IMG/VR virus record: IMGVR_UViG_3300036770_003135
Location: 1 to 64,000 of that record
Direction: 5' to 3' (one strand)
Source: a virus
Length of the DNA: 64,000 nt
Shown here: positions 111 through 14,063 of the stretch, in pieces
Position numbering within the stretch: the stretch's first letter is position 1
Layout: the number at the start of each line of letters is the position of its first letter
Notes under the pieces: generated by a model
Database searches by the model: none
Told to the model about the DNA's origin: nothing
What the model saw: only the letters and a program-made list of their open reading frames with translations
Translations under genes and position numbers: made by a program

Positions 111-160
111 ATAACAAAGAATATGTGCCATTAAAACGAACACATATTCTCAACCGTTAT
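111..160 (-). repeat. Cassette-boundary inverted repeat, site A
   Basis: On the plus strand the site reads ATAAC (111-115), 2-nt spacer, 10-nt arm (118-127), 13-nt loop, perfectly complementary arm (141-150), spacer CAACC, GTTAT (156-160). The loop holds ATTAAAACGA, shared with sites C and F. No T-run follows the stem in the gene direction, so it is not a typical terminator. The layout matches five other sites in this array. Confidence 0.8.
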
Positions 161-171
161 AATTAATAAAA

Positions 172-249
172 TTATTTAGGTATCCAAAACCCTTGAATTG
201 TCTGTTTTACTTCAATAAATACTATTCCGTTTGCTGTTCTTATCCACAT
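172..249 (-). CDS. Tiny 25-aa hypothetical protein in cassette array
   Basis: An ATG at 247-249 opens a 25-codon frame (MWIRTANGIVFIEVK...) ending with TAA at 172-174. It is the only ORF between repeat sites A and B. Its stop lies 12 nt from the GTTAT end of site A, the same geometry as the other genes in the array. The mix of hydrophobic and charged residues is plausible for a short protein, but no family is recognised. The case rests mainly on position, and it could be chance. Confidence 0.35.
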   Translation of the reverse strand: MWIRTANGIVFIEVKQTIQGFWIPK

Positions 250-263
250 AATTTTACGATTTT

Positions 264-350
264 ATAACAAGGTATATGTGAAATACCTTATAAAGTTTTT
301 ACTAAATTTTAAGTTTGTTGTTAGGTACTTCACATATACCCAACCGTTAT
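264..350 (-). repeat. Cassette-boundary inverted repeat, site B
   Basis: ATAAC at 264-268, spacer AA, then an 18-nt arm (271-288) complementary with one mismatch to 323-340, spacer CAACC, and GTTAT at 346-350. The loop is 34 nt and lacks the ATTAAAACGA motif. The 2-nt versus 5-nt spacer asymmetry is identical to sites A and F. It lies directly downstream of the 361-606 gene. Confidence 0.8.
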
Positions 351-360
351 GAGTAATAAT

Positions 361-606
361 TTAAAATTTATTTATTATTTTATTTTCAATATACTCTTTA
401 ACTTTTGATGGTAATATTTGTGTTGGAAATGACCCTTCAGCACCAACATACATTTCACTACTTGCGACATCACTTGCATCTATTTTATAATATTGTTCAT
501 CTGGTGAGCATATTGTTACATGAGTTACCTCACCCCATCTACCAGAACCAACCCAATAAAACCATAGGTCATTTCCAATATGTATTTTTCTTTTCGTTTT
601 TTTCAT
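361..606 (-). CDS. Hypothetical 81-aa cassette protein
   Basis: A compact 81-residue protein starting MKKTKRK from ATG at 606, with a basic N-terminus, an aromatic stretch (DLWFYWVGSGRWGE) and a lysine-rich C-terminal helix. No domain is recognised. The plus-strand frame over the same bases has low-complexity composition and looks like a shadow. The gene sits alone between repeat sites B and C, with its stop 11 nt from site B. A/T-rich leader, no Shine-Dalgarno. Probably an accessory early protein, by inference from position only. Confidence 0.7.
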   Translation of the reverse strand: MKKTKRKIHIGNDLWFYWVGSGRWGEVTHVTICSPDEQYYKIDASDVASSEMYVGAEGSFPTQILPSKVKEYIENKIINKF

Positions 607-632
607 AGGTATAAATTTTAAATTACATACTT

Positions 633-682
633 ATAACAGCAAATATATTACATTAAAACGACAATATATTTGCGACCGTTAT
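633..682 (-). repeat. Cassette-boundary inverted repeat, site C
   Basis: ATAAC at 633-637, then an arm GCAAATATATT (639-649), loop ACATTAAAACGAC, perfect reverse-complement arm (663-673), and GTTAT at 678-682. Counting the stem from 640 gives the same 2-nt and 5-nt spacers as sites A and B. It is nearly identical in arms and loop to site F, 1.3 kb away, which suggests duplication or exchange. Confidence 0.8.
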
Positions 683-690
683 AAGTAATA

Positions 691-960
691 TTATTTTTGT
701 TTTGAGTCCATATATTCTTTCACATAAGCAGAATGTGTGTCTCGCATATTCTGTTCAAGTTTTCTCATTTCATCAATATGTTCTTTTGTAAGTTCAAATA
801 TTCTCATTTCAGATTGCTCGACACCCATTCCAAATGTTGGATGTTGTGGTTCGTTACGTTTTTCGTCTTCTGTTAATTCTCTTGAATTGTTTGTTTTGAA
901 TGTTTCATATGATTCTCTCGCATCCAACATTTCTTTCTTTAATTGTTCTAATTTTTCCAT
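691..960 (-). CDS. Hypothetical 89-aa charged helical protein
   Basis: This 89-aa protein (MEKLEQLKKEMLDARES...) is rich in Glu, Lys, Arg and Met and is likely almost all alpha-helix, with heptad-like stretches in the first 30 and last 35 residues. The centre holds a Pro/Gly-containing turn (EPQHPTFGMG). No family assigned. It lies between repeat sites C and D, with its stop 9 nt from the GTTAT of site C. The opposite-strand ORF here (737-1024) is Ser/Cys/Phe-rich and looks spurious. Probably a small accessory protein or oligomeric adaptor, by inference only. Confidence 0.72.
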   Translation of the reverse strand: MEKLEQLKKEMLDARESYETFKTNNSRELTEDEKRNEPQHPTFGMGVEQSEMRIFELTKEHIDEMRKLEQNMRDTHSAYVKEYMDSKQK

Positions 961-1004
961 AATTTATATTTTTTTAATAGGTAAAACAAAAATAATACTC
1001 ACTT

Positions 1005-1094
1005 ATAACAAGGTGTATAAGTAATTTTTTTACAAAGGTACGAATAAGTTTTGGTATTTCCAAATAAAAAACTACATATACACCCAACCGTTAG
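1005..1094 (-). repeat. Cassette-boundary inverted repeat, site D
   Basis: ATAAC at 1005-1009, spacer AA, a 12-nt arm (1012-1023) complementary with one mismatch to 1073-1084, spacer CAACC, then GTTAG at 1090-1094. The loop is 49 nt. The right terminus is GTTAG rather than GTTAT, so the outermost pair is altered. It follows the 1101-1277 gene by 6 nt. Confidence 0.75.
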
Positions 1095-1100
1095 CAGAAA

Positions 1101-1277
1101 TTACCGCCTAAACTTTTTACTTCTATCCTTTGGGTATAGTGCTTTCATTAACTTTTTATGTTCTTTTTCACTTATCTGCGATGTCGGTAACTCTCCGCTA
1201 ACAGCAGGTTTGTGAAATAAACCACTTTCGATTTCTCCGTAAGTTGGTAGTGATTTGAATGTTCTGTTATTCTTCAT
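1101..1277 (-). CDS. Hypothetical 58-aa basic cassette protein
   Basis: An ATG at 1275-1277 opens 58 codons ending with TAA at 1101-1103. The protein begins MKNNRTFKSLPTYGE and ends in a strongly basic tail (KDRSKKFRR). No family recognised; the basic tail might contact nucleic acid. The left arm of repeat site E lies inside this coding region and the right arm just upstream of the start, so the start codon sits in the loop of a possible long-range hairpin. Mixed coding-like composition and array position support it as real. Confidence 0.62.
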   Translation of the reverse strand: MKNNRTFKSLPTYGEIESGLFHKPAVSGELPTSQISEKEHKKLMKALYPKDRSKKFRR

Positions 1278-1324
1278 ATATTTTAATTGTTAAATGTTTA
1301 CTTCACAAACCTGCGAAACGTTAT
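1198..1324 (-). repeat. Cassette-boundary inverted repeat, site E
   Basis: CTAAC at 1198-1202, a perfect 13-bp arm pair (1204-1216 with 1302-1314), spacer GAAAC, and GTTAT at 1320-1324. The 85-nt loop contains the start of the 1101-1277 gene. The stop codon of the next gene (1321-1323) lies inside the terminal GTTAT. This is the only site that overlaps coding sequence at both ends. Confidence 0.72.
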
Positions 1325-1530
1325 AACCCATTCAACACATCTACAATCTTCTGTGAAATATCTTTTGGTAGTTTATCCCAATTCCAACTCATAAAGTTAT
1401 ATAAAACAATTCCTTCGTCTTCACATTCAATAGAAGATATTTCACCATCTTCATTAACAATCCAAGTTCTATCTAAAAAAGATGAACGGGCCGTGTAATC
1501 AACATTTTCGTTCTTATTATCTTTATTCAT
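1321..1530 (-). CDS. Hypothetical 69-aa acidic cassette protein
   Basis: A 69-aa acidic protein starting MNKDNKNENVDY, with a Trp-rich segment (YNFMSWNWDKLP) and a C-terminal helix ending VDVLNGL. No domain recognised. Its TAA stop is formed by the GTTATAA end of repeat site E, so the repeat supplies the stop. The opposite-strand frame 1259-1498 looks like a shadow. Position in the array and natural composition support a real gene; function unknown. Confidence 0.65.
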   Translation of the reverse strand: MNKDNKNENVDYTARSSFLDRTWIVNEDGEISSIECEDEGIVLYNFMSWNWDKLPKDISQKIVDVLNGL

Positions 1531-1565
1531 ATTATTTAAGTTTTGTATTTCAATTTAGGAAAAAA

Positions 1566-1590
1566 CTACATATATCCGTAACCGTTATGC
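1566..1590 (-). repeat. Truncated cassette-boundary repeat (right half only), site G
   Basis: A tract CTACATATATCCG followed by TAACC and GTTATGC closely matches the right half of site D. No matching left arm or ATAAC box is visible between here and the 1321-1530 start. It follows the 1606-1902 gene at the distance expected for a site, so it looks like a decayed or rearranged copy. Confidence 0.5.
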
Positions 1591-1605
1591 TTAATTTTAA
1601 AAATT

Positions 1606-1902
1606 TTATGAATTTGTTTTATGCTTCGCAATCCACTCATCATAAGTTAGTGTATTAGATTGTAAATACTTTTTAGCAATTTCAGCGTTATATTGTCTAT
1701 TTTCTTCCATTAAATTACCATCCCTAAACATTTCACCTGTTTTAATTGCTTTCCAATCTAAACCACCTTTCCATTCAACAATTAACATTTGAGACATTAC
1801 ATCTTTTAAATGTTCTTGTGTTGTTGTTTCGCTTTGCATATTTATAAAACCATCAGTTACTTGTTTCATATATGTTTCATATTCTTTTTGATATTCTCTC
1901 AT
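1606..1902 (-). CDS. Hypothetical 98-aa cassette protein
   Basis: A 98-aa, largely helical charged protein (MREYQKEYETYMKQ...) with a central aromatic segment (VEWKGGLDWKAIK) and a C-terminal stretch YDEWIAKHK. No family recognised. The leader shares a long near-identical tract with the leader of the truncated gene at 1-85, so both cassettes carry the same upstream module. It lies between half-site G and complete site F. Probably a real accessory gene; function unknown. Confidence 0.7.
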   Translation of the reverse strand: MREYQKEYETYMKQVTDGFINMQSETTTQEHLKDVMSQMLIVEWKGGLDWKAIKTGEMFRDGNLMEENRQYNAEIAKKYLQSNTLTYDEWIAKHKTNS

Positions 1903-1935
1903 TTTTTATTTGTATAAAATTTTTAAAACTAAAAC

Positions 1936-1985
1936 ATAACAACAAATATATTGCATTAAAACGACAATATATTTGCAGAAGTTAT
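1936..1985 (-). repeat. Cassette-boundary inverted repeat, site F
   Basis: ATAAC at 1936-1940, spacer AA, an 11-bp perfect stem (1943-1953 with 1965-1975), loop CATTAAAACGA, spacer CAGAA, and GTTAT at 1981-1985. This is the cleanest copy and almost matches site C. It marks the upstream boundary of the array: no further copy was found beyond 2 kb. Confidence 0.82.
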
Positions 1986-1993
1986 AGGTAATA

Positions 1994-2182
1994 TTAAAAT
2001 TTGCTTTTAACATCATCTACGAACTTTTGTAAACTTATTTCTTCATCATCCTGATATAGTTTGCCATCTTTTAATTCTGCTACTACGTCATCGCCATTCA
2101 TATAATTCCAAAAGTTTACAAAAGTTCTACCATCACCAACAACGTGAAGTTCGATTTCTATTTTTAATCTTTTTTCTTCCAT
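1994..2182 (-). CDS. Hypothetical 62-aa small protein
   Basis: A 62-aa acidic protein (MEEKRLKIEIELHVV...) that looks like a short beta-rich segment, an 'ELKDGKLYQDDEE' turn, then a C-terminal helix. No family recognised. The stop is 9 nt from repeat site F. It is the most upstream gene of the array, and no repeat lies between it and the methyltransferase gene at 2220. Start chosen at ATG 2182, preceded by an A/T-rich leader. Confidence 0.68.
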   Translation of the reverse strand: MEEKRLKIEIELHVVGDGRTFVNFWNYMNGDDVVAELKDGKLYQDDEEISLQKFVDDVKSKF

Positions 2183-2219
2183 ATCAAATTTTAATACATA
2201 CCTATATTACTCATTTTAT

Positions 2220-2672
2220 CTAATTTTTTCTTCCATCAAATACAACAATCATACTATCTTTTGTACCACTTTGTACTTTACCCTTTGAATTTACAGGATA
2301 ATAAAAATTACCATCATTATCAACTTTCCCAAATTTAATCCTTCCCCTTACAAATTCAATTTCAGTCGCATTTGGTTTAATATAATCGTGAAATAACCTT
2401 GTGGAGGTGGAAACTGGTATCAAAAATACACAAACTTTTCCCTTCTTCATCTCCTCAATCCCTTTCTTAATAAAGGCCTCCTTTAACTTCTGACTATATG
2501 GGGGATTTATGAAATTTGACATCCCCCATTCAATATTTAAACCATCAATATCAACATCTTTCTCATTGTATGGACAAGGGTCAAAATCAAATTTAAACCT
2601 CTTGTTTAACTCCTCATAAAATTCTGGGGGAGTTGCATAATTATCATCATTATTAATGTGAATCTTTTTCAT
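2220..2672 (-). CDS. Phage-type DNA adenine-N6 methyltransferase
   Basis: At 150 aa this matches the compact phage Dam-like family (DNA N-6-adenine-methyltransferase). Visible features are the N-terminal 'NNDDNYATPPEFYEEL' segment, a 'FDFDPCP' strand typical of the SAM-binding fold, and the catalytic NPPY motif at residues 56-59. Such enzymes methylate adenine in phage DNA, commonly as protection from host restriction. The ATG overlaps the stop of the preceding Cys-pair gene (TAATG), implying translational coupling. Target sequence cannot be read from the protein. Confident on family, inferred on role. Confidence 0.88.
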   Translation of the reverse strand: MKKIHINNDDNYATPPEFYEELNKRFKFDFDPCPYNEKDVDIDGLNIEWGMSNFINPPYSQKLKEAFIKKGIEEMKKGKVCVFLIPVSTSTRLFHDYIKPNATEIEFVRGRIKFGKVDNDGNFYYPVNSKGKVQSGTKDSMIVVFDGRKN

Positions 2673-2896: not shown

Positions 2897-3056
2897 TATT
2901 TTCGTTTTTATATATAAGTTTATATGTTTTTGGGTTTATTCCAATTATTTCTTTATCTGATACAAATTTAACACCATTATAAACATAATGATATTTCTTT
3001 GATTTCATCCCAATGTAATTTAATAACTTTTCAATTTTTGTCTTTTCACAATTCAT
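2880..3056 (-). CDS. Hypothetical 58-aa basic protein
   Basis: ATG at 3054-3056 opens 58 codons (MNCEKTKIEKLLNYIGMKSKK...) ending TAA at 2880-2882, overlapping the Cys-pair gene by 17 nt. It is Lys-, Tyr- and Asn-rich, and part of the sequence reads like a small beta unit (YHYVYNGVKFVSDKEIIG). It fills what would otherwise be a 178-base hole in a tightly packed operon, which supports it. No family recognised. Confidence 0.6.
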   Translation of the reverse strand: MNCEKTKIEKLLNYIGMKSKKYHYVYNGVKFVSDKEIIGINPKTYKLIYKNENNGQFN

Positions 3057-3074
3057 TTTTTAATTGTATTGGTA

Positions 3075-3923
3075 TTATAAATCTAATTTTAAATTAAAAA
3101 CTTGCGCAATTACATTCATAGGAATTCTAAACTCTTCAAATGTCCCATCCTCTTTCAATAATACGATTATCGCCCCAAAAAGTCCAATATTTTCATATTT
3201 ACTTCCAACCAACATTTTAAACAATAATCTCAAATATAATGGTAGTTGAACATAATAGTGACCCAAAGCATTATTGGGTAACTTATTGAAGGGGTATTTC
3301 ATCGGTTTTGTAAAATGGTTGGATTCAAAGTTTTTAGGTTTATTTGTTTTATAATCAGTTACTATCCAACCTATTTTATTTTTTTCTTCATTTTTTATTA
3401 ACCATAATTTATCTGGTTGTCCTGTATATTTTAATTCTGGATGACCTAAAACAGTTTCCGTATCAAATAAAAGTGCTTTTCTTTCTTTCATAAGATTTAA
3501 AAAGTTAATCCCAGCACTGACCATTCTATCACTCTTTAATATTTGGTCAAAATCACAATCAAAGATTGGTTGTCTAACCTCTTTCTTAATATCAAACATA
3601 TCAAGGGATTTTTGTTCCAATAAAAAGTGGGTTCTACTACCTAAGTTAGTTGAATATGTTCCGGCATCAGACCATTCTTTTAACAATTTTTGTTGTTCTT
3701 CAATATCACCTTTAGCTTTCTTTAATGCAATTTCTTCAGCTGGGAATTCATCATAATAGTTTTTAATTACTTTTGATACTGATTTCCAATCATCTCTAGA
3801 ATTACCATTAAGGTCTAACATAGTGTATTTGTGATGTTCTTCGTCAAACGAAAGTTTTAATTCTTTCCTTTTATCTTCCAAAAAACATTTAATTTCATCT
3901 CTTAATTCAATTAATTCATTCAT
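3075..3923 (-). CDS. PD-(D/E)XK (RecB/Cas4-like) nuclease
   Basis: This 282-aa protein carries signatures of the PD-(D/E)XK nuclease fold: an early helix 'LGSRTHFLLE', 'ELKYTGQPDKLWLI' giving the first metal-binding acidic residue, 'GWIVTDYKTNK' giving the D-x-K pair, and 'YYVQLPLYLRLL', the QxxxY motif of the RecB/exonuclease branch. It probably degrades or processes DNA in phage recombination or host DNA breakdown. It overlaps the upstream HNH gene by 4 nt (ATGA). No fused helicase. The family call is firm; the specific role is not known. Confidence 0.82.
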   Translation of the reverse strand: MNELIELRDEIKCFLEDKRKELKLSFDEEHHKYTMLDLNGNSRDDWKSVSKVIKNYYDEFPAEEIALKKAKGDIEEQQKLLKEWSDAGTYSTNLGSRTHFLLEQKSLDMFDIKKEVRQPIFDCDFDQILKSDRMVSAGINFLNLMKERKALLFDTETVLGHPELKYTGQPDKLWLIKNEEKNKIGWIVTDYKTNKPKNFESNHFTKPMKYPFNKLPNNALGHYYVQLPLYLRLLFKMLVGSKYENIGLFGAIIVLLKEDGTFEEFRIPMNVIAQVFNLKLDL

Positions 3924-4477
3924 ATGATTTTATTACTTTTTTTATAATTTTCGTTAGCCCATAGGGGTTGTAAATTAGTATAATGTGATAAACGATAAAC
4001 ATCTTCAATTGTTTGAGCTTGAGATATTGGTATTTTGTGGTCAATATGCCACCCATAAAATCCAAAGTTTTCCCAACTCATCCCATCTTTAAATTGTTGT
4101 TCTAAATACATTTTCAATTCATTTGGGGTACAACCAACAAAATCTATAGTTTTATTCAATGAAGTATTAAAATTCTTACTTTTTAAGAAAAGTTTCAATC
4201 TATTTCTTACAGAAATTTTAATCTTATAAATAAGGTCATTATTTCTACGTTTTGTTTCTCGTAAATTTCTGTTTTTTTTCGTTATATCTTTATTTTTTAA
4301 TTGATAATTGGTTTGTCTTTCAATTTCTTTTTTTTGATTTTTGTAATAAAAATTTTTGTATTCCCCTGACGTACATAAACGACATCGATATCTCAACCCA
4401 TCTTTTGAATATTTATCCTTATTAAATTCACAAAGTGATTTTTCAACCCCACATTTTTTACATACTTTTGTTTCCAT
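3920..4477 (-). CDS. HNH endonuclease with N-terminal zinc finger (copy 1)
   Basis: A 185-aa free-standing HNH endonuclease. A four-cysteine zinc finger (C6, C9, C32, C35) is followed by a long basic helical region and the HNH core 'WHIDHKIPIS...HYTNLQPLWANENYKKSNK' at about residues 143-183. Such proteins are usually homing endonucleases that spread in phage genomes. Its start overlaps by 20 nt a 52-aa ribbon-helix-helix-like gene, and its end overlaps the nuclease gene. The same pair occurs again on the other side of the primase gene. Confidence 0.88.
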   Translation of the reverse strand: METKVCKKCGVEKSLCEFNKDKYSKDGLRYRCRLCTSGEYKNFYYKNQKKEIERQTNYQLKNKDITKKNRNLRETKRRNNDLIYKIKISVRNRLKLFLKSKNFNTSLNKTIDFVGCTPNELKMYLEQQFKDGMSWENFGFYGWHIDHKIPISQAQTIEDVYRLSHYTNLQPLWANENYKKSNKII

Positions 4478-4616
4478 TTTTATAGTCTTTGAGTAATTTA
4501 TTTACTAAAGAAGATAAATTAATATGTTGTTGTCGAAAATAGTTTAGTAATTCAGGTTCTAATGCAACTGATACTTTTGTTTTCTTTTCGTTTTCATTTT
4601 TGATTTTTCTTCCCAT
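4458..4616 (-). CDS. Ribbon-helix-helix-like DNA-binding protein paired with HNH (copy 1)
   Basis: A 52-aa frame from ATG 4616 begins MGRKIKNENEK. A short beta-like segment (KVSVALEPE) is followed by two predicted helices (LLNYFRQQHI, LSSLVNKLLKDY), the pattern of small MetJ/Arc or CopG-type regulators. It overlaps the HNH start by 20 nt, so the two are probably co-translated. A paralogue with the same 'HINLSSL.NKLLK.Y' core stands before the second HNH gene. A TATTTAT box lies 5 nt before the ATG. Probably represses or guides its partner; that is inference. Confidence 0.75.
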   Translation of the reverse strand: MGRKIKNENEKKTKVSVALEPELLNYFRQQHINLSSLVNKLLKDYKNGNKSM

Positions 4617-4621
4617 ATAAT

Positions 4622-4628
4622 ATAAATA
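4622..4628 (-). promoter_or_regulatory. TATTTAT box before RHH copy 1
   Basis: TATTTAT in gene direction, 5 nt before the ATG at 4616. The flanks (ATATTTAT then ATTATATGGG) resemble those of the paralogous gene at 6459. The short gap would imply a leaderless message if this is a -10 element. Confidence 0.4.
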
Positions 4629-4667
4629 TAATCAAATTTATAAAAGTGTGAATATTCACATTTTTTT

Positions 4668-5570
4668 TTATTTTATTTCAATATAATATTCATTTATTTG
4701 TCCCCTCAAATCGGCAATATCCTTGTCCAAAGGTAGTTTAACTATTTTAATTTTTCCATATAAATTCCCACCATTTAACTCGTGATACAATTTGATTGCA
4801 TTATTCCAAGCATCACCATCCAAGGCAATTGTTATATTACCATTACACTTTTCATATAAGGTATCAAATAATAATGAACTCATATGTTTTCCCAACATTG
4901 GAATACTATTTGGAATGAATATTGAATCAAATGCACCTTCAACTAGGGTAATATCTTTATTCCAATCAATCAAACTCTCAAAGAATATGATTTCATCTTT
5001 TGGATTTTCAGGGTTTTTATATTTTGCTTTTGTATGTAAATCCCAACTTCTGGCAATATAGTAATTTAATTTGTTATTTTTATCATAAGATGGGATTATT
5101 ATTCTACCAGCGTGACTACCATTATCACAAAAACCGATTCCATATCTTTCAATTATTTCATCGGTAATACCCCTATTCATTAAATAATTATATGCTTGTC
5201 TTCTTACTGGGTATATTGATGAGACCTCATTGAACTTCCGATAAAAACTCGGTAGTTCAAGTTTGTTTACCTTTTTCTTTTGTATTGGTTTGTTTTCTTC
5301 TGGTAAAAAAGTACTTAACAATTTTAATTGTTTTTTATTACCATATCTTTTTACTAATTTATGAATAGTACCATGAGTATCATTCACTTCTGAACAAGAC
5401 CAACATTTCCAAACTCCTTGAAAAATATTAACTTCTAGGTTTCCTTTGTTTCTATCTTCATCACATTCTTTACAATTGAACCCATATTGACCTTTACTTT
5501 CATATGATTTTTTTGGGTCTCCCAAAATATCCGTTAATACATCCAACAAAACTTCATTACCATCATCCAT
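4668..5570 (-). CDS. DnaG-type primase
   Basis: At 300 aa this has the size of a compact phage primase (T4 gp61 role). The N-terminal zinc-binding region shows C33, C36, C56 and C59 (the latter in 'CWSCS'). The Toprim core follows with 'ITLVEGAFDSI' and 'IALDGDAWNN', whose Glu and Asp-x-Asp bind catalytic metals. It would make RNA primers for lagging-strand synthesis with the DnaB-like helicase encoded at 40374. HNH genes stand on both sides, 6 nt upstream and about 190 nt downstream. Confidence 0.9.
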   Translation of the reverse strand: MDDGNEVLLDVLTDILGDPKKSYESKGQYGFNCKECDEDRNKGNLEVNIFQGVWKCWSCSEVNDTHGTIHKLVKRYGNKKQLKLLSTFLPEENKPIQKKKVNKLELPSFYRKFNEVSSIYPVRRQAYNYLMNRGITDEIIERYGIGFCDNGSHAGRIIIPSYDKNNKLNYYIARSWDLHTKAKYKNPENPKDEIIFFESLIDWNKDITLVEGAFDSIFIPNSIPMLGKHMSSLLFDTLYEKCNGNITIALDGDAWNNAIKLYHELNGGNLYGKIKIVKLPLDKDIADLRGQINEYYIEIK

Positions 5571-5576
5571 AAAATA

Positions 5577-6317
5577 TTATTCATCTATATTTTCTAAAAT
5601 TATTTTTTTTCCTTTTTTTAAGTTTTCGATTGCACTTAATGGTCTCAAATTAGTGTAATGCCATAATTCAAATAAACTTTGTTCATCCTTTGCTGAACTT
5701 AATGGAACTATATGGTCAATATGCCATGTTGCCTTACCCCAATTTTCCCAAGTCATCCAACTTTCAAATTGACTTTCGATATATTCTTTTAATCCATTTA
5801 TTGAAGTACCTAATATTTCTTCTAACCTTTTATTTCGTTTTTTCCTTTTTAATGAAATATAAATGTCTGTTCTTAATTTGGTTTTCAATTTGAAGAATAT
5901 ATCTTCTTTTTTCCTTTGAAAAAATCGTTCTTTAGTTCTTTTTAAAATTTTTTCTTTGTTTTTTTCATAATATTCTTTTCTTTTTTTTGATAATTTTTCT
6001 TTATTTTCGTTTTTGTATTTTTTTATATATTCTTTTCTTTTTTCTGGATTTTCTTTCATCCATCTTTTTGTCCTCTCTTTTCGTTTTTCCCTTTCTTTCT
6101 TAATCCTTTCCCTATCCTTCATCAAGTTTTCTTGATGATTTTCATAATATTTTTGACTTCGTTTTTTAGATATTTCTTCACGATTATCTTCAACATATTT
6201 TTTACCAATAGGTTTCCTACATTCCTTACAGATAGTATTGTACCCATCTTTTTGAAATTTATGTTTGTGGAATTCAGTAAATTGTTTTTCAACTTTACAT
6301 ATGTTACATATTTTCAT
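5577..6317 (-). CDS. HNH endonuclease with N-terminal zinc finger (copy 2)
   Basis: About 246 aa from the ATG at 6317; a TTG two codons upstream is a weaker alternative. The N-terminus has CxxC...CxxC cysteines (CNIC, CKEC). A very long Lys/Glu-rich helical linker follows, then the HNH core 'WHIDHIVPLSSAKDEQS...HYTNLRPLSAIENLKKGKK'. It is a paralogue of the HNH protein at 3920 with a longer linker. Its start overlaps by 14 nt a ribbon-helix-helix-like gene, and its end is 6 nt before primase. Probably a homing endonuclease targeting DNA near the primase locus; target unknown. Confidence 0.87.
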   Translation of the reverse strand: MKICNICKVEKQFTEFHKHKFQKDGYNTICKECRKPIGKKYVEDNREEISKKRSQKYYENHQENLMKDRERIKKEREKRKERTKRWMKENPEKRKEYIKKYKNENKEKLSKKRKEYYEKNKEKILKRTKERFFQRKKEDIFFKLKTKLRTDIYISLKRKKRNKRLEEILGTSINGLKEYIESQFESWMTWENWGKATWHIDHIVPLSSAKDEQSLFELWHYTNLRPLSAIENLKKGKKIILENIDE

Positions 6318-6572: not shown

Positions 6573-6788
6573 ATGCCAACAACAATAACAATAAATGGAG
6601 TTTCAGGTTCAACACCTTTCGACATTTATCTATGCGATGATCCCTTAACAACTTGTGTTTATGTAGATACCATAACTGGTGGTACTTATTCATTTGATGT
6701 CCCATTAATTATGGATGGTCAATTATCATATAATCTTAAAGTTGTTGACGATAATGATTGTGAAATAATCTCAAATTTAGTAGTTTAA
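6573..6788 (+). CDS. Small tail-adhesin accessory protein (71 aa)
   Basis: A 71-aa beta-rich protein beginning MPTTITINGVSGSTPF, with 'IYLCDDPLTTCVYV' and a C-terminal 'LKVVDDNDCE'. It resembles the 99-aa protein at 8733, which shares the pattern 'ITG..PYxIYICD...C..V...VKV...GCE', so the two are paralogues. It is the first gene of the plus-strand tail-fibre operon, 3 nt before the next start. Probably a small virion or fibre-tip component; exact role unknown. Confidence 0.68.
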   Translation: MPTTITINGVSGSTPFDIYLCDDPLTTCVYVDTITGGTYSFDVPLIMDGQLSYNLKVVDDNDCEIISNLVV

Positions 6789-6791
6789 TAG

Positions 6792-8720
6792 ATGGCTAAT
6801 TACGGCTTTTACGTAGCAAATACAGGTAGTACACTTTATAGTGGATTCACATTCTTGGACTCACAAGGAAATAATGTTACAATTAATATACCACCAAGTC
6901 AAACATTTTATGTTAGTGCTAGTGATGTAATTACAGGTTCAACTTACACCAATTTAGACATAACATTAATAGGTACTTTAGATATTAACTACGATTTTAA
7001 GACGTGTTGTAGTGCTGATTTTTTCTCTATTGATTTACCGAATTCATTATCTGGACTTGCTAACACATATTATTATGTTTATTACGCGGCATTTTCTAGT
7101 AGCTCAAATGTTGGTTATGGTTGTTATAACATAACTCCAGGTGGTCCATCATATTCTTATGTTACTGCATTATCTTTTGACGATTTAACCCCTTATGTTA
7201 ATTGTACTGATTGTACCAACACAAATCAATGTAATATAGATGAATGTTGTTTACTCCTTAGTGTTGAATATAGTGGGGGTTATTATTATAGGACTTTATT
7301 CAACGAAGGTATTATAAATGGTAGACAATTTTATACTTTCTCAAATATAACTGGAGGTACAATTGTTATGTATTGGAGTCCTGGTGGTGAATGGAATATG
7401 GACAATATAACCACTTCAGTTGCTAGGGGTTCAGGTAGTTTAACTACAGGATATTGTCCTTCATTTACTTTAACAACGATAGATAATGCTTTAAATTGTT
7501 TAAGTGATTTAACGGGTTTAACAATTAATCTAAGTTCAGAACTCATTTCTTGTTCAGGTTGTTCTCCAATATATTGTATAAACAATACTGGGTTAGGATA
7601 TGATGATACTTTTTTATCCGCAGGTACTCATAACTCCGAAACGTATTGGTCAGGGGTAACAAATGGTTATTTAATTTATTTTACAACTGGTGGAACTTGG
7701 TGTTTATCAACCATATTGGATGGGGTTTGTTTATTAGAAGGACCTTATCCTTGTATTTCAAGTTGTCCTGATTTATGTGATGACTATGTTTTTAGTGGAA
7801 ATTGTCCAACACCTACACCAACACCTACTATTAATTGTTCCGTATTGGACTTTAGTGCAATATTTGATTGTGAGGTAACTCCAACACCAAGTGTTACTCC
7901 GACTAATACAGTAACACCAACAGTTACACCAACACCATCAACAACACCATTGTGTCCTTTTATTAATGTTGATGTAACAATTACTGGTTATACTCCAACA
8001 CCAACTCCAACACCAACTGTAACTCCTACTTTAACACCAATTATTGATAGACCTTGTAATATAATAGGTAATGTTAATTATACAACAATTGAAAATCAGT
8101 TAATTTGTCCAGTATCAAGAAGATTTGTTGATTGTTCAAATGGTCAGATTTATTTCACTAATAGTGGAATTTCAACACCATCTGGTGATACATTAACACC
8201 ATTATTACTATTTAAAGCTGATGTTGATGGTGTTTCAAAATGTGTTGTTTATACTGGTTTGGACTATGATAATAGTCCGATAAACTCAATAACTTTGGTT
8301 GATGGACCTTTAGGTGATTTAAATATTATTCCTGATTGTTCTCCTTGTACTCCTGATGTATCACCAACACCAACACCATCACCAACTTTAAGTCCAACAC
8401 CAACATTGACATTAACACCAACATCGTCATCAGCAATTGGGTTTTATACATATAAAGAATGTGGTTCTAGCTCTTATATAATTCAAACAAATCCAGGACC
8501 TACTACATCCGTTGGTTCAATATTTAGAACAGCATCAGGTTCGACTGGACTATGTTTTGAATATATTTCTTATAGTTTAGGTTATCCTTCATTACCACCA
8601 AGTTCATCATATACTTATTGGACTGGTAATTATTTCCCAACTAGTGGTATATTATATTTCCCAACTTGTACTGATTGTATTTTTGTAACAAATGGTCAAA
8701 GTTCTCCAATTGAAACTTAG
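6792..8720 (+). CDS. Large Cys-rich tail adhesin with Thr-Pro linkers
   Basis: A 642-aa modular protein. The first ~330 residues contain beta-rich, cysteine-rich units; two segments share a pattern of an aromatic strand, 'GG' and 'W' (near residues 180-200 and 275-310). Thr-Pro linkers follow at about 339-346, 362-386, 400-417 and 522-546, separating further small Cys-containing domains. Such extended linkers are typical of cell-surface adhesins and flexible fibre stalks. Position among fibre genes suggests a receptor-binding tail protein. No enzymatic motif is visible. The high cysteine count is unusual for a phage protein folded in the cytoplasm. Confidence 0.75.
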   Translation: MANYGFYVANTGSTLYSGFTFLDSQGNNVTINIPPSQTFYVSASDVITGSTYTNLDITLIGTLDINYDFKTCCSADFFSIDLPNSLSGLANTYYYVYYAAFSSSSNVGYGCYNITPGGPSYSYVTALSFDDLTPYVNCTDCTNTNQCNIDECCLLLSVEYSGGYYYRTLFNEGIINGRQFYTFSNITGGTIVMYWSPGGEWNMDNITTSVARGSGSLTTGYCPSFTLTTIDNALNCLSDLTGLTINLSSELISCSGCSPIYCINNTGLGYDDTFLSAGTHNSETYWSGVTNGYLIYFTTGGTWCLSTILDGVCLLEGPYPCISSCPDLCDDYVFSGNCPTPTPTPTINCSVLDFSAIFDCEVTPTPSVTPTNTVTPTVTPTPSTTPLCPFINVDVTITGYTPTPTPTPTVTPTLTPIIDRPCNIIGNVNYTTIENQLICPVSRRFVDCSNGQIYFTNSGISTPSGDTLTPLLLFKADVDGVSKCVVYTGLDYDNSPINSITLVDGPLGDLNIIPDCSPCTPDVSPTPTPSPTLSPTPTLTLTPTSSSAIGFYTYKECGSSSYIIQTNPGPTTSVGSIFRTASGSTGLCFEYISYSLGYPSLPPSSSYTYWTGNYFPTSGILYFPTCTDCIFVTNGQSSPIET

Positions 8721-8721
8721 A

Positions 8722-8728
8722 TATTTAT
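8722..8728 (+). promoter_or_regulatory. TATTTAT box before 99-aa gene
   Basis: TATTTAT one base after the TAG stop of the preceding gene and only 4 nt before the ATG at 8733. If a promoter, the message would be leaderless or nearly so. Confidence 0.38.
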
Positions 8729-8732
8729 CAAT

Positions 8733-9032
8733 ATGACAACCATTCAATTTAATACGATTACTGGATTGAACCAACCATACTCAATTTACATTTGTGATGT
8801 TTATGGGTTAAATTGTATTTTAGTTGGGTATTTTGCAACAAATGTTCCACCAACTAATACCTTTGTTTTACCACCTCAATTTAATTCAGCACCAGCAATT
8901 GGTGTGAAAGTTATAACAAGTGATGGGTGTGAAAAATTTAAGGTGTTATATTGTAGTGACGATAATAAAGATTTTATGGATTTGGAAGATTTCTTTTTTA
9001 TGGATGGTATTGGTTATTTCTTTATGTCCTAA
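8733..9032 (+). CDS. Small tail-adhesin accessory protein (99 aa)
   Basis: A 99-aa protein starting MTTIQFNTITGLNQPYSIYICD, paralogous to the 71-aa protein at 6573 over the first ~75 residues and carrying an extra acidic/aromatic tail (DNKDFMDLEDFFFMDGIGYFF). The core looks like a small beta-sandwich with conserved Cys positions. It lies between two large adhesins in the rightward operon. It could be a trimerisation or connector module, but no family can be named. Confidence 0.66.
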   Translation: MTTIQFNTITGLNQPYSIYICDVYGLNCILVGYFATNVPPTNTFVLPPQFNSAPAIGVKVITSDGCEKFKVLYCSDDNKDFMDLEDFFFMDGIGYFFMS

Positions 9033-9033
9033 C

Positions 9034-9040
9034 TATTTAT
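9034..9040 (+). promoter_or_regulatory. TATTTAT box before SHAEG fibre gene
   Basis: TATTTAT starting one base after the preceding TAA and 14 nt before the ATG at 9055, followed by an A/T-rich leader. Confidence 0.42.
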
Positions 9041-9054
9041 TAATAAAAATATAA

Positions 9055-10686
9055 ATGGCATTTCTTACAGATAGAACTTTAGCGACAGGGGTTACATTAA
9101 ATGATTTAATTCATATTGTAATAACTGGTGATACATCTCAAAATCCTGCTGGTTCTTCATATAAAGCAACAATTTCTCAAGTTACAGATTTAGTTAATTC
9201 AATTGTTATTACTGGGGGTACTTATAATCCAATAACTGGAGATATAACTTTTACCAATTCTTCTGGTGGTACTTTTGTTGTTAATGGGTTTGTAACAGGT
9301 TATACTGATACATATGTAACTGGGGGTACTTATTCTGTAGGTACTGCTGTGTTTACTAATTCTTCTGGTGGTACTTTTAATGTTAGTGGATTTACTGAAC
9401 CATTTACTGGTGGAAGTGGTAATTGTATAACAGATTTTTATGTTACAAACATATATGGTTGTTCTCCTATAACAATACAATCTGAAACAAAATTTTTTAA
9501 TAACTTTGCAACAGGTACTTTGAGTTTTTCACAAGGTCAAGGTAGTCAAGCAAGTGGTGATTATAGTATGAGTCAAGGTTATGAGAGTAAATCAATTGGT
9601 GATTATTCTCACGCTGAAGGACTTGGTACTCAATCACAAGGTAACTATTCTCATAGTGAAGGTAGAGAAACTATTTCATTAGGGGTTTATTCTCATTCTG
9701 AAGGATATCAAAGTGATTCAATTGGATTATATTCTCACGTTGAAGGTGAATACTCAATAAGTAGTGGTAGAAGTTCTCACTCTGAGGGTTATTACTCACA
9801 ATCAATTGGGGGTTATTCCCACGCTGAAGGTGGTTATTTTGATGGTGTTACAACTTTTAGTGGTGGTACTTCAATTGGGTTAGGTTCTCATGCAGAAGGT
9901 AGAGAAACAATTGCTAGTGGTAATACATCACATGCTGAAGGTCGAGAAAGTATTTCAATTGGTAGTAACTCACACGCAGAAGGATTACAAACAATTTCAT
10001 TAGGTGCTAGTTCTCATTCAGAGGGTCGTGAAACTAATACAGAAGGTGATTTTTCACACTCTGAAGGATATCTAACAAAATCAACTGGAGGTTATTCTCA
10101 CGCAGAAGGACAAAGTACCCAAAGTATTGGACTTGGTTCTCATGCTGAAGGATTATCATCTATATCTATCGGTAAAAATTCTCACGCTGAAGGACTTTAC
10201 ACAATTGCAAGTGGTGATTATCAACATACTCAAGGAAAATACAACTTAACCTCAACAACGGTTTCAGCATTCATTATTGGTAATGGTTCTAGTAATGTAA
10301 GTAGAAGTAATTTAGTTTTTGCCGCAAACGATGAATTCAATATATATGGTGATTTAAATGTTACTGGGTTTATAAATGGTAATATTTCAGGTCTTAGTGA
10401 ATTTATTTCAACAACTGGTGTTACAACTTCAGCTTTTACTATAACATCAGGTATAACATATTGGGGAATAAATTATAATGGAAATGTTGATGTATCAATT
10501 CCTGACCCAACGGGTATTGATGGTTTAAAATTAATAATAAAAGATGAGGGGGGATATTCAGGTTCATATAGAATAAGATTAACACCATTAGCAGGTACAA
10601 TTGATGGAAATTCTTACGTTGACATGAACATAAACTATATGTCACTAACATTGGTGACAAGAAATAATAATTGGTGGTTAATATAA
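9055..10686 (+). CDS. Tail fibre with YadA-head-like SHAEG repeats
   Basis: A 543-aa fibre. The N-terminal ~55 residues (MAFLTDRTLATGVTLNDLIH...) look like a virion-attachment domain. Residues ~60-125 hold repeated 'GGTY...FTNSSGGTF' strands. Residues ~168-400 hold 14 SHxEG units, mostly 14 residues apart, with one unit of 23, closing with 'YQHTQGKYN'. This repeat forms left-handed beta-rolls in trimeric YadA-type adhesins and some phage fibres. The C-terminal ~140 residues form a beta-rich tip. Likely a trimeric receptor-binding or shaft fibre. The family of the repeat is well known; the receptor is not. Confidence 0.85.
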   Translation: MAFLTDRTLATGVTLNDLIHIVITGDTSQNPAGSSYKATISQVTDLVNSIVITGGTYNPITGDITFTNSSGGTFVVNGFVTGYTDTYVTGGTYSVGTAVFTNSSGGTFNVSGFTEPFTGGSGNCITDFYVTNIYGCSPITIQSETKFFNNFATGTLSFSQGQGSQASGDYSMSQGYESKSIGDYSHAEGLGTQSQGNYSHSEGRETISLGVYSHSEGYQSDSIGLYSHVEGEYSISSGRSSHSEGYYSQSIGGYSHAEGGYFDGVTTFSGGTSIGLGSHAEGRETIASGNTSHAEGRESISIGSNSHAEGLQTISLGASSHSEGRETNTEGDFSHSEGYLTKSTGGYSHAEGQSTQSIGLGSHAEGLSSISIGKNSHAEGLYTIASGDYQHTQGKYNLTSTTVSAFIIGNGSSNVSRSNLVFAANDEFNIYGDLNVTGFINGNISGLSEFISTTGVTTSAFTITSGITYWGINYNGNVDVSIPDPTGIDGLKLIIKDEGGYSGSYRIRLTPLAGTIDGNSYVDMNINYMSLTLVTRNNNWWLI

Positions 10687-10687
10687 T

Positions 10688-11905
10688 ATGGCATACATTT
10701 TTAATAATTCAATAAAATACTCAGATAGTCCAAACCTAGATGCGTTTGGTAGATTAAGAACTGCTGCAGTTCAAAATCTTTTGGATATAAAACATACTTA
10801 CGATAAAAATCCTCTTCAAGTTAATGAAGTTACTGCAGGTACTGCCACATCCGTATTTAACCAACAATATGCAAGGGTAAGAATGTCAACTTCGGCTAAT
10901 AACGATTTAGTTATTCGTCAGACAAAAACTCACCCAATTTATCAACCAGGTAAAAGTCAATTATTTGAAGCAAGTTTTAGTAACTTTACAATTGAAACAA
11001 ATGTTATTAAAAGAGTTGGTGTTTTTCAATCAACAACAGGAACACCATATAATTCAGTCTTTGATGGATTATTTTTGGAAAGTAATGGTGTTACAAGTGC
11101 AATAACTTTTAACATTTATTTAAGTGGTTCTTGTACATATAGTGCAGATACTTCTATTTGGAATAATACTCAATTTGACCCCAATAATTTTGATTGGTCT
11201 GATGTTAATTTAATGACAATTGATTATCAATGGTTAGGTGTTGGTAGAGTTAGATTTGGTATGGTATTATCAGGACAAACAATATATTTTGTAGATTATA
11301 CAGCTGCAAATAATATATCAACTGTTTATATGTCTTCACCCAACCAACCAATAAGATATGAAATTAGACAAGATGGTGTTGGTTCAGGTTATTTTGATAT
11401 GATTTGTTCTCAAGTTTCAACTGAAGGAGCATTAAATGGTTTGTATTCAACAGTTTCAGTTCCATATACAGCAACAACAACATTAGATCCATCTGGGACT
11501 AAATTTCCATATATTGGTTATAGATTAAAAGAATCTTATAAGTCAGTTACATCACAATATAATTCAGTTAGTATATTAAACACATCTAATGACAATTATT
11601 TATTAACAATGGAATTTAATCCTACTTTATCTTATACCCCAACTTGGGTAGATATTCCAAATTCACCATTCCAATATAGTTTGGGTACTGGTAACACACA
11701 TACTGTAACATCAACAGGTCACGTTATGACATCTTTGATTGGTGAGGCTGGTACATCAGCTTTAACTACAACAAAACTTGATGACAATCAAATCAGAGTT
11801 GGTTCAAATGTTAATGGTACTTTGGATGAAATGTGGTTATGTATAACACCATTAGGAGCTAACGCATATTTTCTTGGTACTGCTGATATTTTGTATTATT
11901 TATAA
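10688..11905 (+). CDS. Conserved tail/virion structural protein (DAFGRLR family)
   Basis: A 405-aa beta-rich protein whose N-terminus contains 'SPNLDAFGRLRTA', a signature I associate with a widespread but poorly named phage structural family. The middle has many aromatic strands, and the C-terminus ends 'AYFLGTADILYYL'. It starts 2 nt after the SHAEG fibre stop, so the two are probably co-expressed. Likely a fibre-associated or capsid-decorating protein folding as beta-sandwich or jelly roll, by inference. No enzymatic residues seen. Confidence 0.72.
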   Translation: MAYIFNNSIKYSDSPNLDAFGRLRTAAVQNLLDIKHTYDKNPLQVNEVTAGTATSVFNQQYARVRMSTSANNDLVIRQTKTHPIYQPGKSQLFEASFSNFTIETNVIKRVGVFQSTTGTPYNSVFDGLFLESNGVTSAITFNIYLSGSCTYSADTSIWNNTQFDPNNFDWSDVNLMTIDYQWLGVGRVRFGMVLSGQTIYFVDYTAANNISTVYMSSPNQPIRYEIRQDGVGSGYFDMICSQVSTEGALNGLYSTVSVPYTATTTLDPSGTKFPYIGYRLKESYKSVTSQYNSVSILNTSNDNYLLTMEFNPTLSYTPTWVDIPNSPFQYSLGTGNTHTVTSTGHVMTSLIGEAGTSALTTTKLDDNQIRVGSNVNGTLDEMWLCITPLGANAYFLGTADILYYL

Positions 11906-11945
11906 AGTCAAATTATCCTCTATATTTTTAATAAAAAAATAATTG

Positions 11946-11952
11946 TATTTAT
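11946..11952 (+). promoter_or_regulatory. TATTTAT box before PA14/SprB adhesin gene
   Basis: TATTTAT 14 nt before the ATG at 11967, in the 61-nt gap after the 10688-11905 gene, an unusually large gap for this operon. Confidence 0.42.
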
Positions 11953-11966
11953 AGTAAAATTTATAT

Positions 11967-14063
11967 ATGTCTTGTATTTGTCCAGCAGGTTATAGTGCCA
12001 ATACTACCAATAATTTTTGTGAAAGAATTTTAGTTACTGCGGTAACAACAAATCCAACTTCGTTTACTATTGTTTCAGCAACACCAAGTCAATATTGGAG
12101 TACTGGTGGGGCTGTTTTTTATGAGGATATTACTAATTTTAATTTTCCAATAAAAATTTCAGGTTCTTCTGGTGTTGTATATACAACAAATAACACACAA
12201 TTATTCAATACATTGTTTTGGGTTGACCAATCATCTAATGTATTAAGTCCAATTGTCGGAGGACCAAGTAGTGGTATTACTTGTACAAGTTTAGGAACGT
12301 TTAATAGTGCAGTTGGTTGTATATGTAATAATTGTTATGGTCCTCAATTTTTAAGAAATAACATTTGGGGTGGTAATGGTAATCTTTCTTTTGGCCGATT
12401 AAATAATACTGCAGTTTGGGCAAATACTTCACCTGATTCATATGGTAACTATCCACCATTAAACCAATGGATTGGTTTTAGTTATTGTATTGACATTCCA
12501 AATTCAGAAACATATTATATTGGTTTAGGTGGTGACGATGAGTTTAGATTTAAAATTAATGGTCAAGAAATTGTAACATCGTTTGGTGGATTTAAACCAA
12601 ATCTTCCCGCTCAACCAAATACTGAATTCGCATTTAGATATTGGTCAGTATTTCCATACACATTTAATCCTGGATTTAATGTTATTGAAATGGAAGGATT
12701 AAACAAATTATATTCCGCAGGTTTTGGTGTAGAGATATATTCTGGTAGTGTATCAGCTCTAACTGCGGTAACAACAACATCAGCATTAAGTGCTTTGACA
12801 ATTTTTTCAAGTATAGATTTAGTTGGCCAAACATTTGATTTAGGTAATAATGGTGAGTCAGGTTATTCCTGTCCTGAAGGTTATTCATTAGTTGTTTGTG
12901 ATGGTCCTCCGTATTGTGCTCAAATATTACAAACACCTTGCCTTGGTAGTCCAACACCAACACCAACACCTACAATAACACCAACACCTACACCAACACC
13001 ATTACCTCTTGTATTTGTTAATGAGTGTGAACCTATTACATTGTTGTCAATGAGTGCAACTTGTTCTATAGTTAATCTTACAAATAAAACAGGTTCAACC
13101 AAAAGTATGGTTGTTAATATAACAGGTGGTACACCACCTTATACAATTAATTGGAGTAATGGTAGTATTACATCTGGTATATCGCCACAATCAATAAATA
13201 ATTTATCAGCTGGAACTTACACAGCTAATATTGTAGATTATTGGGGTGATTTTAGTGCGACAACAACTTGTACTATACCACCAGAAGCAATAAGTTGTGA
13301 ACGAGTTTTTATTATACCTAATTTAAAAACAGAATGTAATGAAGGTTTAGGGACAGGATTTTTAGATTTTACTATTAATGGTGGTACTCCACCATATACT
13401 TATTCTGGTAATGTGAACGGAGTAGTTACAACAATAACTAATCCACAACCAATAAATGATGGTGATATTGTAAATGTAATAATTACTGACTATAATGGTT
13501 GTGTTTCCAATGTTTATTCAAAAAGAATAAGTTGTCCATCAACTCCTGAACCATTAAATTGCACAACAACTAGTTGTCCTAATGGCAATACTTTTGTTTT
13601 TGATATTTCAGCTACAACTATTTCTCTTACAACAAATATTTCAGTTATATTTGAATCTAAATTATCGTCACCAAATGCGACATCAGTTAGGGGTAGTTAT
13701 AAAATAAGTAATATTGATTTTCCTAATACATTTTTAAAAGATTTCCAATTAGGAATAATAGATCGTAAAAATTATTATAAAGGGTCTGATGGTGCACCAC
13801 AAATTGAGCTATCAAACTATTTAGAAATTGGTTTTAATCAATTGACACCACCAACACTAACAAATTCAGATTCACCTTGGAATTTAACAATTACACCTTA
13901 TCCTAGTTTTGGAGGTTACACACAACCAACACCATTTGAAGAGGGTACTATACTTACAATAGAAATTTCACTATATGATGAAGACTATTGTGTTCATAAA
14001 GGGAGTGGTTTTTTAACAATTCCTAATGATACATTAACAAATACATTATCAATTAGTTTTTAA
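11967..14063 (+). CDS. Adhesin with PA14/fibro-slime-like domain, Thr-Pro linker and SprB repeats
   Basis: A 698-aa modular protein. It begins with a short Cys-rich motif (CICPAGYSA). Residues ~170-260 resemble PA14/fibro-slime carbohydrate-binding domains ('YYIGLGGDDEFRFKINGQE' and 'GFNVIEMEGLN'). A Thr-Pro linker occupies about 328-346. Two SprB-type repeats follow ('GGTPPYTINWSNG' near 385 and 'NGGTPPYTYSGN' near 471), then a beta-rich C-terminal domain. SprB repeats belong to Bacteroidota surface adhesins, so this phage protein probably reuses host-type modules to bind the cell surface. It ends 2 nt before the next gene. Confidence 0.8.
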   Translation: MSCICPAGYSANTTNNFCERILVTAVTTNPTSFTIVSATPSQYWSTGGAVFYEDITNFNFPIKISGSSGVVYTTNNTQLFNTLFWVDQSSNVLSPIVGGPSSGITCTSLGTFNSAVGCICNNCYGPQFLRNNIWGGNGNLSFGRLNNTAVWANTSPDSYGNYPPLNQWIGFSYCIDIPNSETYYIGLGGDDEFRFKINGQEIVTSFGGFKPNLPAQPNTEFAFRYWSVFPYTFNPGFNVIEMEGLNKLYSAGFGVEIYSGSVSALTAVTTTSALSALTIFSSIDLVGQTFDLGNNGESGYSCPEGYSLVVCDGPPYCAQILQTPCLGSPTPTPTPTITPTPTPTPLPLVFVNECEPITLLSMSATCSIVNLTNKTGSTKSMVVNITGGTPPYTINWSNGSITSGISPQSINNLSAGTYTANIVDYWGDFSATTTCTIPPEAISCERVFIIPNLKTECNEGLGTGFLDFTINGGTPPYTYSGNVNGVVTTITNPQPINDGDIVNVIITDYNGCVSNVYSKRISCPSTPEPLNCTTTSCPNGNTFVFDISATTISLTTNISVIFESKLSSPNATSVRGSYKISNIDFPNTFLKDFQLGIIDRKNYYKGSDGAPQIELSNYLEIGFNQLTPPTLTNSDSPWNLTITPYPSFGGYTQPTPFEEGTILTIEISLYDEDYCVHKGSGFLTIPNDTLTNTLSISF

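Follow-up and report, generated by a model that had tools for sequence, protein, structure and literature searches.

A probable integron-like system of small-gene cassettes in Bacteroidota phages

Integrons, known so far from bacteria and reported in Bacteroidota (PMC8618304, PMC2426708), are exemplified by the class 1 and Vibrio types, in which each cassette consists of one gene and one folding site (attC), with TAAC...GTTA recombination ends and complementary cassette ends, and in which a tyrosine recombinase (IntI) and an attI site lie at one end of an array of genes mostly of unknown function. The additional domain of IntI is unique to integron integrases and required for activity, according to Messier & Roy (2001, cited in PMC2426708). 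In phages, integrons are known as host-type integrons or IntI1-compatible attC clusters; attC-bearing arrays, recognized with IntegronFinder/HattCI, were described in phages including lytic ones and the Bacteroidota phage P12002L (Qi et al. 2023, PMC9892861). In T4-type phages, stem-loop and promoter units lie between small shuffled genes; these promoter/stem-loop (PeSL) cassettes are described without a recombinase in the account of PMC4503421 (citing Arbiol 2010 and Comeau 2014). Here we analyse a 64,000-nucleotide (nt) stretch of viral DNA (the window; positions 1 to 64,000 of the IMG/VR record IMGVR_UViG_3300036770_003135), which carries near its left end an array of small genes separated by hairpin sites.

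The window array is very probably part of a phage-owned integron-like system, a reading based on sequence comparison, and the features listed above for class 1 and Vibrio-type arrays have their counterparts in that system. It is likely to represent a private integron of Bacteroidota phages, with its own clade of compact recombinases without the IntI domain, its own attI, bulge-type sites, cassettes reversed so that the site forms the 5′ expression part, and hundreds of small genes, possibly for host takeover or counter-defence, that circulate among unrelated phages. The system works like an integron and is not classed as one, because both the IntI domain and the attC spacer geometry were looked for and neither was found.

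Hairpin sites and complementary cassette ends

All array genes lie on the minus strand, and the array is described in that sense throughout. Each site then reads ATAAC, 4–5 nt, an arm, a loop, the second arm, 1–2 nt and GTTAT, followed by the gene. A scanner for this order ([ACT]TAAC, 3–6 nt, an arm, the complement of the arm, 0–3 nt, GTTA) found exactly six sites in the window, all on the gene-sense strand; these are the six complete repeats of the original prediction, whose coordinates, ends and spacers were all confirmed. Twenty dinucleotide shuffles of the window, scanned on both strands, gave two matches in total. The bare pattern ATAAC-N20-48-GTTAT is weakly enriched (16 occurrences versus 8.1 expected), and the signal therefore resides in the hairpin architecture; the simple ATAAC...GTTAT pattern was rejected as a site detector owing to its low specificity.

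An exact 23-mer taken from one of the sites is also present in nine further IMG/VR contigs, which are 19 to 465 kb long. A degenerate pattern of the 50-nt type matches at least 120 stretches of viral contigs, and 6 contigs among 84,980 bacterial and archaeal genomes, some of them phage-like. Named isolated phages had no 50-nt site, and the recombinase described below reached at most about 40% identity there among the matches listed. The fetched loci (referred to by L numbers) hold 701 sites with 410 distinct sequences, separating several hundred different small genes; loci are shared among searches, and these counts are not independent events. Site lengths fall into discrete classes of 50, about 80–94 and about 114–141 nt. 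Arm sequences vary among sites with pairing retained: over most stem positions of the long sites the arms pair in 55–74% of sites, compared with mostly 25–60% after permutation, with many pair types at arm positions and fixed G.T wobbles at certain ones. As pairing is itself a selection criterion of the scanner, the weight of this result lies in the permutation and in the variety of pair types.

A second complementarity joins the two ends of each gene body. Within a body, the six bases following GTTA pair with the six preceding TAAC (88/82/81/82/76/70% at positions 1–6, compared with 54/31/29/37/36/50% after permutation), and no pairing was found in this comparison between the flanks of one hairpin. 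Folded as DNA, body end, hairpin and body start give one long and almost perfectly paired hairpin, whose 3-nt bulge directly follows TAAC. A body's own ends folded better than unrelated ends in 144 of 160 cases. The sense-strand fold was more stable than the antisense fold in 155 of 160, a bias that may in part be selection, as orientation was set by a scanner giving G.T pairs half credit; the agreement in direction between genes and sites (545 with, 23 against) is independent of that credit. Such complementary ends are, in sequence terms, a signature of circular cassettes, in which the sense strand would be expected to form a single long hairpin, the 3-nt bulge lying beside TAAC.

The unit that moves was approached by comparing cassettes with differing neighbours. 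Where the upstream neighbour differs, the upstream hairpin is unchanged in 17 of 24 comparisons, whereas the downstream hairpin is unchanged in 4 of 14 where the downstream neighbour differs, all four of the common 50-nt type (Fisher p = 0.018; for long sites alone p = 0.087, not significant). Because the hairpin tends to stay with the gene downstream of it and attI lies at the 3′ end of the array, the cassette appears to be mainly a hairpin plus the gene that follows. A unit of gene plus downstream hairpin, the classical integron order, is contradicted by this retention and by the attI junction, and the arrays of L157 and L167 are readable in either order.

A site placed before its gene may act as the 5′ part of that gene, and many sites, since they precede the gene, also provide a start codon and leader peptide, some with a promoter match. 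In 130 of 190 long sites an open reading frame (ORF) starts in the loop and runs through the 3′ arm, with one frame strongly preferred. The promoter motif TTTG-N-TAnnTTTG is matched in 13 of 128 sites of the 80–94 nt class, compared with 2.8 in shuffled sequence; its frequency among 50-nt and long sites does not clearly exceed chance. Sites of 114–141 nt (for example L004 6706–6832, L009 1921–2037 and window 1471–1590) precede different cargo proteins with common, exchangeable N-terminal leaders, such as ...KLHISDV and ...NLNISDV; the recombination site is therefore predicted to be translated and fused to the cargo.

Recombinase, attI-like site and cassette exchange

Thirteen of 43 site-bearing records have a tyrosine recombinase match (PF00589) over the cut-off, 11 of them strong and intact, beside arrays. 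In each of 13 loci with the recombinase gene called, it is on the strand of the array genes and follows the last site at a distance of 259–711 nt, and no site comes after it. In viral contigs a profile search detected 235 relatives, and no same-strand site was found downstream of the recombinase in the 68 loci with the gene called. The original prediction had proposed a search for a tyrosine recombinase elsewhere in the phage or host; the remainder of the 102.8-kb window record has none, and no further site, and the enzyme was found instead adjoining arrays in other phages, together with an attI-like site. The latter is the motif TAACTAnTATATAT, which 55 of 61 loci have in the interval from the last gene body to the recombinase, no more than 170 nt before the recombinase gene (downstream control, 1 of 61; shuffled, 0.7). 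No hairpin is formed at the motif, and bodies adjoining it have ends that pair as elsewhere. TAACTAnTATATAT is the candidate attI of the phage system.

Members of the recombinase family are about 267 amino acids (aa) long, and the catalytic R, H-x-x-R, H and Y are invariant. In a tree with long branches and a rough bootstrap, the phage recombinases group together in a single clade (100/100) that excludes IntI and the chromosomal Bacteroidota relatives. Their match to TIGR02249 falls below its cut-off (151–162 of 265 bits) and is split into two stretches, and in a profile alignment with IntI4 (2a3v) 81 residues stand opposite 33 in the recombinase. On the evidence of these alignments and the tree, the recombinase is without the additional IntI domain (I2 patch) and outside the IntI clade. 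An AlphaFold model of moderate confidence, with a poor C-terminus, has Xer and IntI4 as its nearest folds and was used only in support.

At the DNA level the 676 cassettes form 432 clusters. Bodies that are nearly identical are found with unrelated neighbours on either side, and the identity stops at TAAC or GTTA. The related contigs L156, L157 and L167 have in common a 908-bp cassette that is 100% identical, located at attI in two of them and between other cassettes in the third; these contigs also have a common block, 13-148-10-149, and reshuffled blocks. L097 is a relative of the window phage (primase 86%, exonuclease 81% and methyltransferase 99% aa identity, in the same order), and at the place of the window array it has an array of different cassettes, in which there is no recombinase. 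Neighbouring arms often have little sequence in common for homologous pairing. Judged from these comparisons, related phages differ by the gain, loss and reordering of entire units, which bears out the attC-like recombining cassettes of the original prediction by the very comparison it had suggested.

In the mechanism that we propose, the recombinase would bind the folded sense strand of a cassette site and, at the TAAC/GTTA point, join this site to attI or a second site. Cassettes would thereby be captured, shuffled and lost, with ordinary homologous recombination assisting, and a captured gene could be expressed at once through the signals borne by its site.

Predicted functions of the cassette genes are few. 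Pfam searches of 100 cassette proteins gave 12 families, each matched by one protein; three of these are overlapping GNAT models, leaving about ten proteins matched, and the families include methyltransferases, an acetyltransferase and PAPS reductase. By Pfam, PHROGs and PADLOC together the cassette proteins are mostly unknown, and the PADLOC matches listed are nearly all methyltransferases.

Alternative explanations and related systems

The arrays could instead be made of PeSL-like promoter/stem-loop modules, expression signals whose identity lets general homologous recombination shuffle genes with no dedicated enzyme. Bacteroidota-type promoter matches in the loops, arrays without a recombinase such as that of L097, and the occurrence of hybrid cassettes fit such modules, and to this extent the PeSL suggestion of the original prediction stands. 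This explanation is nevertheless very unlikely, given a clade-specific recombinase and an attI motif at one fixed array end, gene bodies whose own two ends are complementary, whereas the flanks of a hairpin are not, and adjacent arms that often offer little common sequence for homologous pairing. To our knowledge, PeSLs have been described without attI and without paired gene-body ends. Quite unlikely, too, is double-stranded dif-like recombination of the Xer/pdif-module kind, in which the hairpin ends would be core sites and genes would be flipped or exchanged as duplex. Duplex sites need neither complementary body ends nor strand-specific G.T pairing, genes are almost never inverted in the arrays, and the attI motif is unlike the hairpin ends except for TAAC, even though the models closest to the recombinase are of the XerA/XerC/D type (NF040815 best; archaeal Xer, 4a8e) and site orientation alternates along the array.

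A role of the hairpins as RNA, whether in processing, stabilization or termination, with duplication alongside the genes, would account for their position after stop codons and for the better pairing of the sense strand through G.U/G.T wobbles. However, no T-run follows the hairpins and an Rfam search of the window matched no family; the next gene's start codon lies inside the loop of most long sites; and in the 90-nt window site the promoter match is itself inside the loop, so that the transcript would be without the 5′ arm. The attI motif, the recombinase and the exchange at TAAC/GTTA would be left unexplained, and we regard an RNA role as highly improbable.

Some observations also weigh against an integron-like system. 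About 70% of the examined site-bearing records are without a full recombinase match, partly because records are fragments, and the window's own record has neither recombinase nor attI; its array is truncated by the contig end before the recombinase end is reached, and the window phage presumably has both, as do many other phages with such arrays. The 13/11 hybrid cassette in L157 and the repeated leaders in L097 resemble homologous recombination, several cassette pairs differ in both hairpins around one body, leaving the exact unit not fixed, and the scanner handles ungapped arms only, so that sites with bulged arms would escape it.

The integron-like phage system differs from classical integrons in its recombinase and in its sites, which have one 3-nt bulge and spacers of 4–5 and 1–2 nt, whereas attC has spacers of 5–6 nt on both sides; extrahelical bases in the phage-site arms could have escaped the ungapped scanner, which detects none of the six VCR-type sites in L284, a Vibrio phage integron. 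Its genes are reversed relative to the site, and the sites carry start codons and sometimes promoter matches. The arrays of Qi et al. (PMC9892861) are host-type integrons or have IntI1-compatible attC sites, whereas the recombinase here belongs to a separate clade confined to phages; on scanning, neither P12002L nor the Vibrio phage integron yielded a credible site built like those described here. In the literature covered, to which most subscription papers did not belong, no account came to light of an integrase clade that is specific to phages and has sites of its own.

Relatives of the recombinase occur in chromosomal, integron-like Bacteroidota arrays with XerA-type 'integron integrases' and TAACG...TGTTA sites of about 105–143 nt. 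Those enzymes are longer (290–500 aa), often with an N-terminal extension, the 50-nt class is missing, and the genes read away from the recombinase, antisense to the site, as in the classical gene-then-attC order. Chromosomal relatives with 105–143 nt sites nearby lie in L275, L268, L278, L257, L261, L263, L264 and L266, and many of the chromosomal recombinase genes are found where a contig stops, as though repeat arrays had interrupted assembly there.

A link between tet(X) and xerD is already known. On an Acinetobacter plasmid (L282; NZ_CP104336.1 4630–11319, reverse complement), tet(X3) has immediately upstream of it a recombinase relative of about 47% identity, at 3043–5215 of the locus; GTTATGTGCC stands before the gene and CTAACAAGCAGTTTTGCAATAGTGGGGC after it, flanks that look like the remnant of a Bacteroidota cassette.

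The window array and its significance

Features of the window array and its 5′ border, in window coordinates
Feature	Positions	Strand	Basis
Last visible cassette body, gene MKNMNLPEKIKLNGYGEMIEF..., cut by contig end	1..110	-	near-identical cassette elsewhere
Hairpin site, 50-nt type, loop TCGTTTTAATG	111..160	-	scanner and inspection
Cassette body, 25-aa ORF 172-249 (MWIRTANGIVFIEVKQTIQGFWIPK)	161..263	-	
Hairpin site, 87 nt	264..350	-	scanner and inspection
Cassette body, gene 361-606 (81 aa)	351..632	-	
Hairpin site, 50-nt type	633..682	-	scanner and inspection
Cassette body, gene 691-960 (89 aa), complementary body ends	683..1004	-	
Hairpin site, 90 nt, Bacteroidota-type promoter match in loop	1005..1094	-	scanner and motif
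Cassette body of gene 1101-1277 (58 aa)	1095..1197	-	
Hairpin site, 127 nt; start codon and leader peptide of gene 1101-1277 in loop/3′ arm	1198..1324	-	
Cassette body of gene 1321-1530 (69 aa)	1325..1470	-	
Half hairpin, decayed site; 5′ arm and leader (MNKDNKNENVDYT) retained, 3′ arm gone	1471..1590	-	
Cassette body, gene 1606-1902 (98 aa)	1591..1935	-	
Hairpin site, 50-nt type, first intact site of array	1936..1985	-	scanner and inspection
Gene 1994-2182, decayed-looking start (TACCTATATTAC for TACCTATAAC)	1986..2214	-	sequence inspection
DNA methyltransferase gene, phage backbone border of array	2220..2672	-	99% aa in L097

The array runs off the left edge of the window, and its last visible cassette, of which other phages have the whole, is truncated at base 1: positions 1–161 match a cassette in L088, L174 and L053 at 98.8% identity, and L088 and L174 are records with the recombinase. 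A relative of the next cassette (161–263) adjoins attI in L162, the body at 351–632 has copies about 98% identical in L068 and L169–L171, with other neighbours there, and the product of gene 691–960 has a relative in L067 at 74% aa identity. The unit of gene 1606–1902 recurs at 92% identity in L007, directly beside attI and the recombinase there, and the match stops at TAAC. The promoter match in the 90-nt site consists of TTTG at 1064–1061 and, 20 nt further, TACCTTTG at 1040–1033, on the minus strand; the ATG of gene 1101–1277 falls within the loop of the upstream hairpin.

A half copy had been placed at 1566–1590; it is real and belongs to a larger remnant, as the sequence running from 1590 to about 1470 corresponds to the 5′ portion of the intact 127-nt site of L004 (a further intact site for comparison is L097 5847–5973). 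The expectation of exactly one small ORF between consecutive sites mostly holds, with only a 25-aa ORF in the 161–263 unit; it fails for the interval 1324–1936, which contains two cassettes because of the half copy. The gene at 1986–2214 is probably a fossil cassette at the 5′ border of the array, and the L097 copy of the adjacent methyltransferase gene likewise borders an array.

Support for the label 'T4-like' is only loose: the phage is of the myovirus type and has a baseplate relative that is flavobacterial. Two related endonuclease VII/HNH-like genes (3920–4477 and 5577–6317) flank the primase gene, and both resemble one L097 gene at about 39% identity. Repetitive, structural-looking genes lie near the array at 6573–14063; an extra hairpin within one of them (7911–7991), reported by a relaxed first scanner, was rejected by the stricter one.

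If the integron-like reading is correct, phages own a dedicated platform for swapping small accessory genes, which would account for the strings of orphan genes in large environmental phages. It would also separate what an integron needs (complementary cassette ends, attI and a tyrosine recombinase) from supposed essentials, namely the IntI domain and the attC geometry of spacers and extrahelical bases. For the mobility of resistance genes, the recombinase relatives beside tet(X3) and on Bacteroidota chromosomes may be of relevance. Each cassette would be a delimited gene with its own start signals, and the arrays would thus constitute ready-made libraries of small phage genes for screening.

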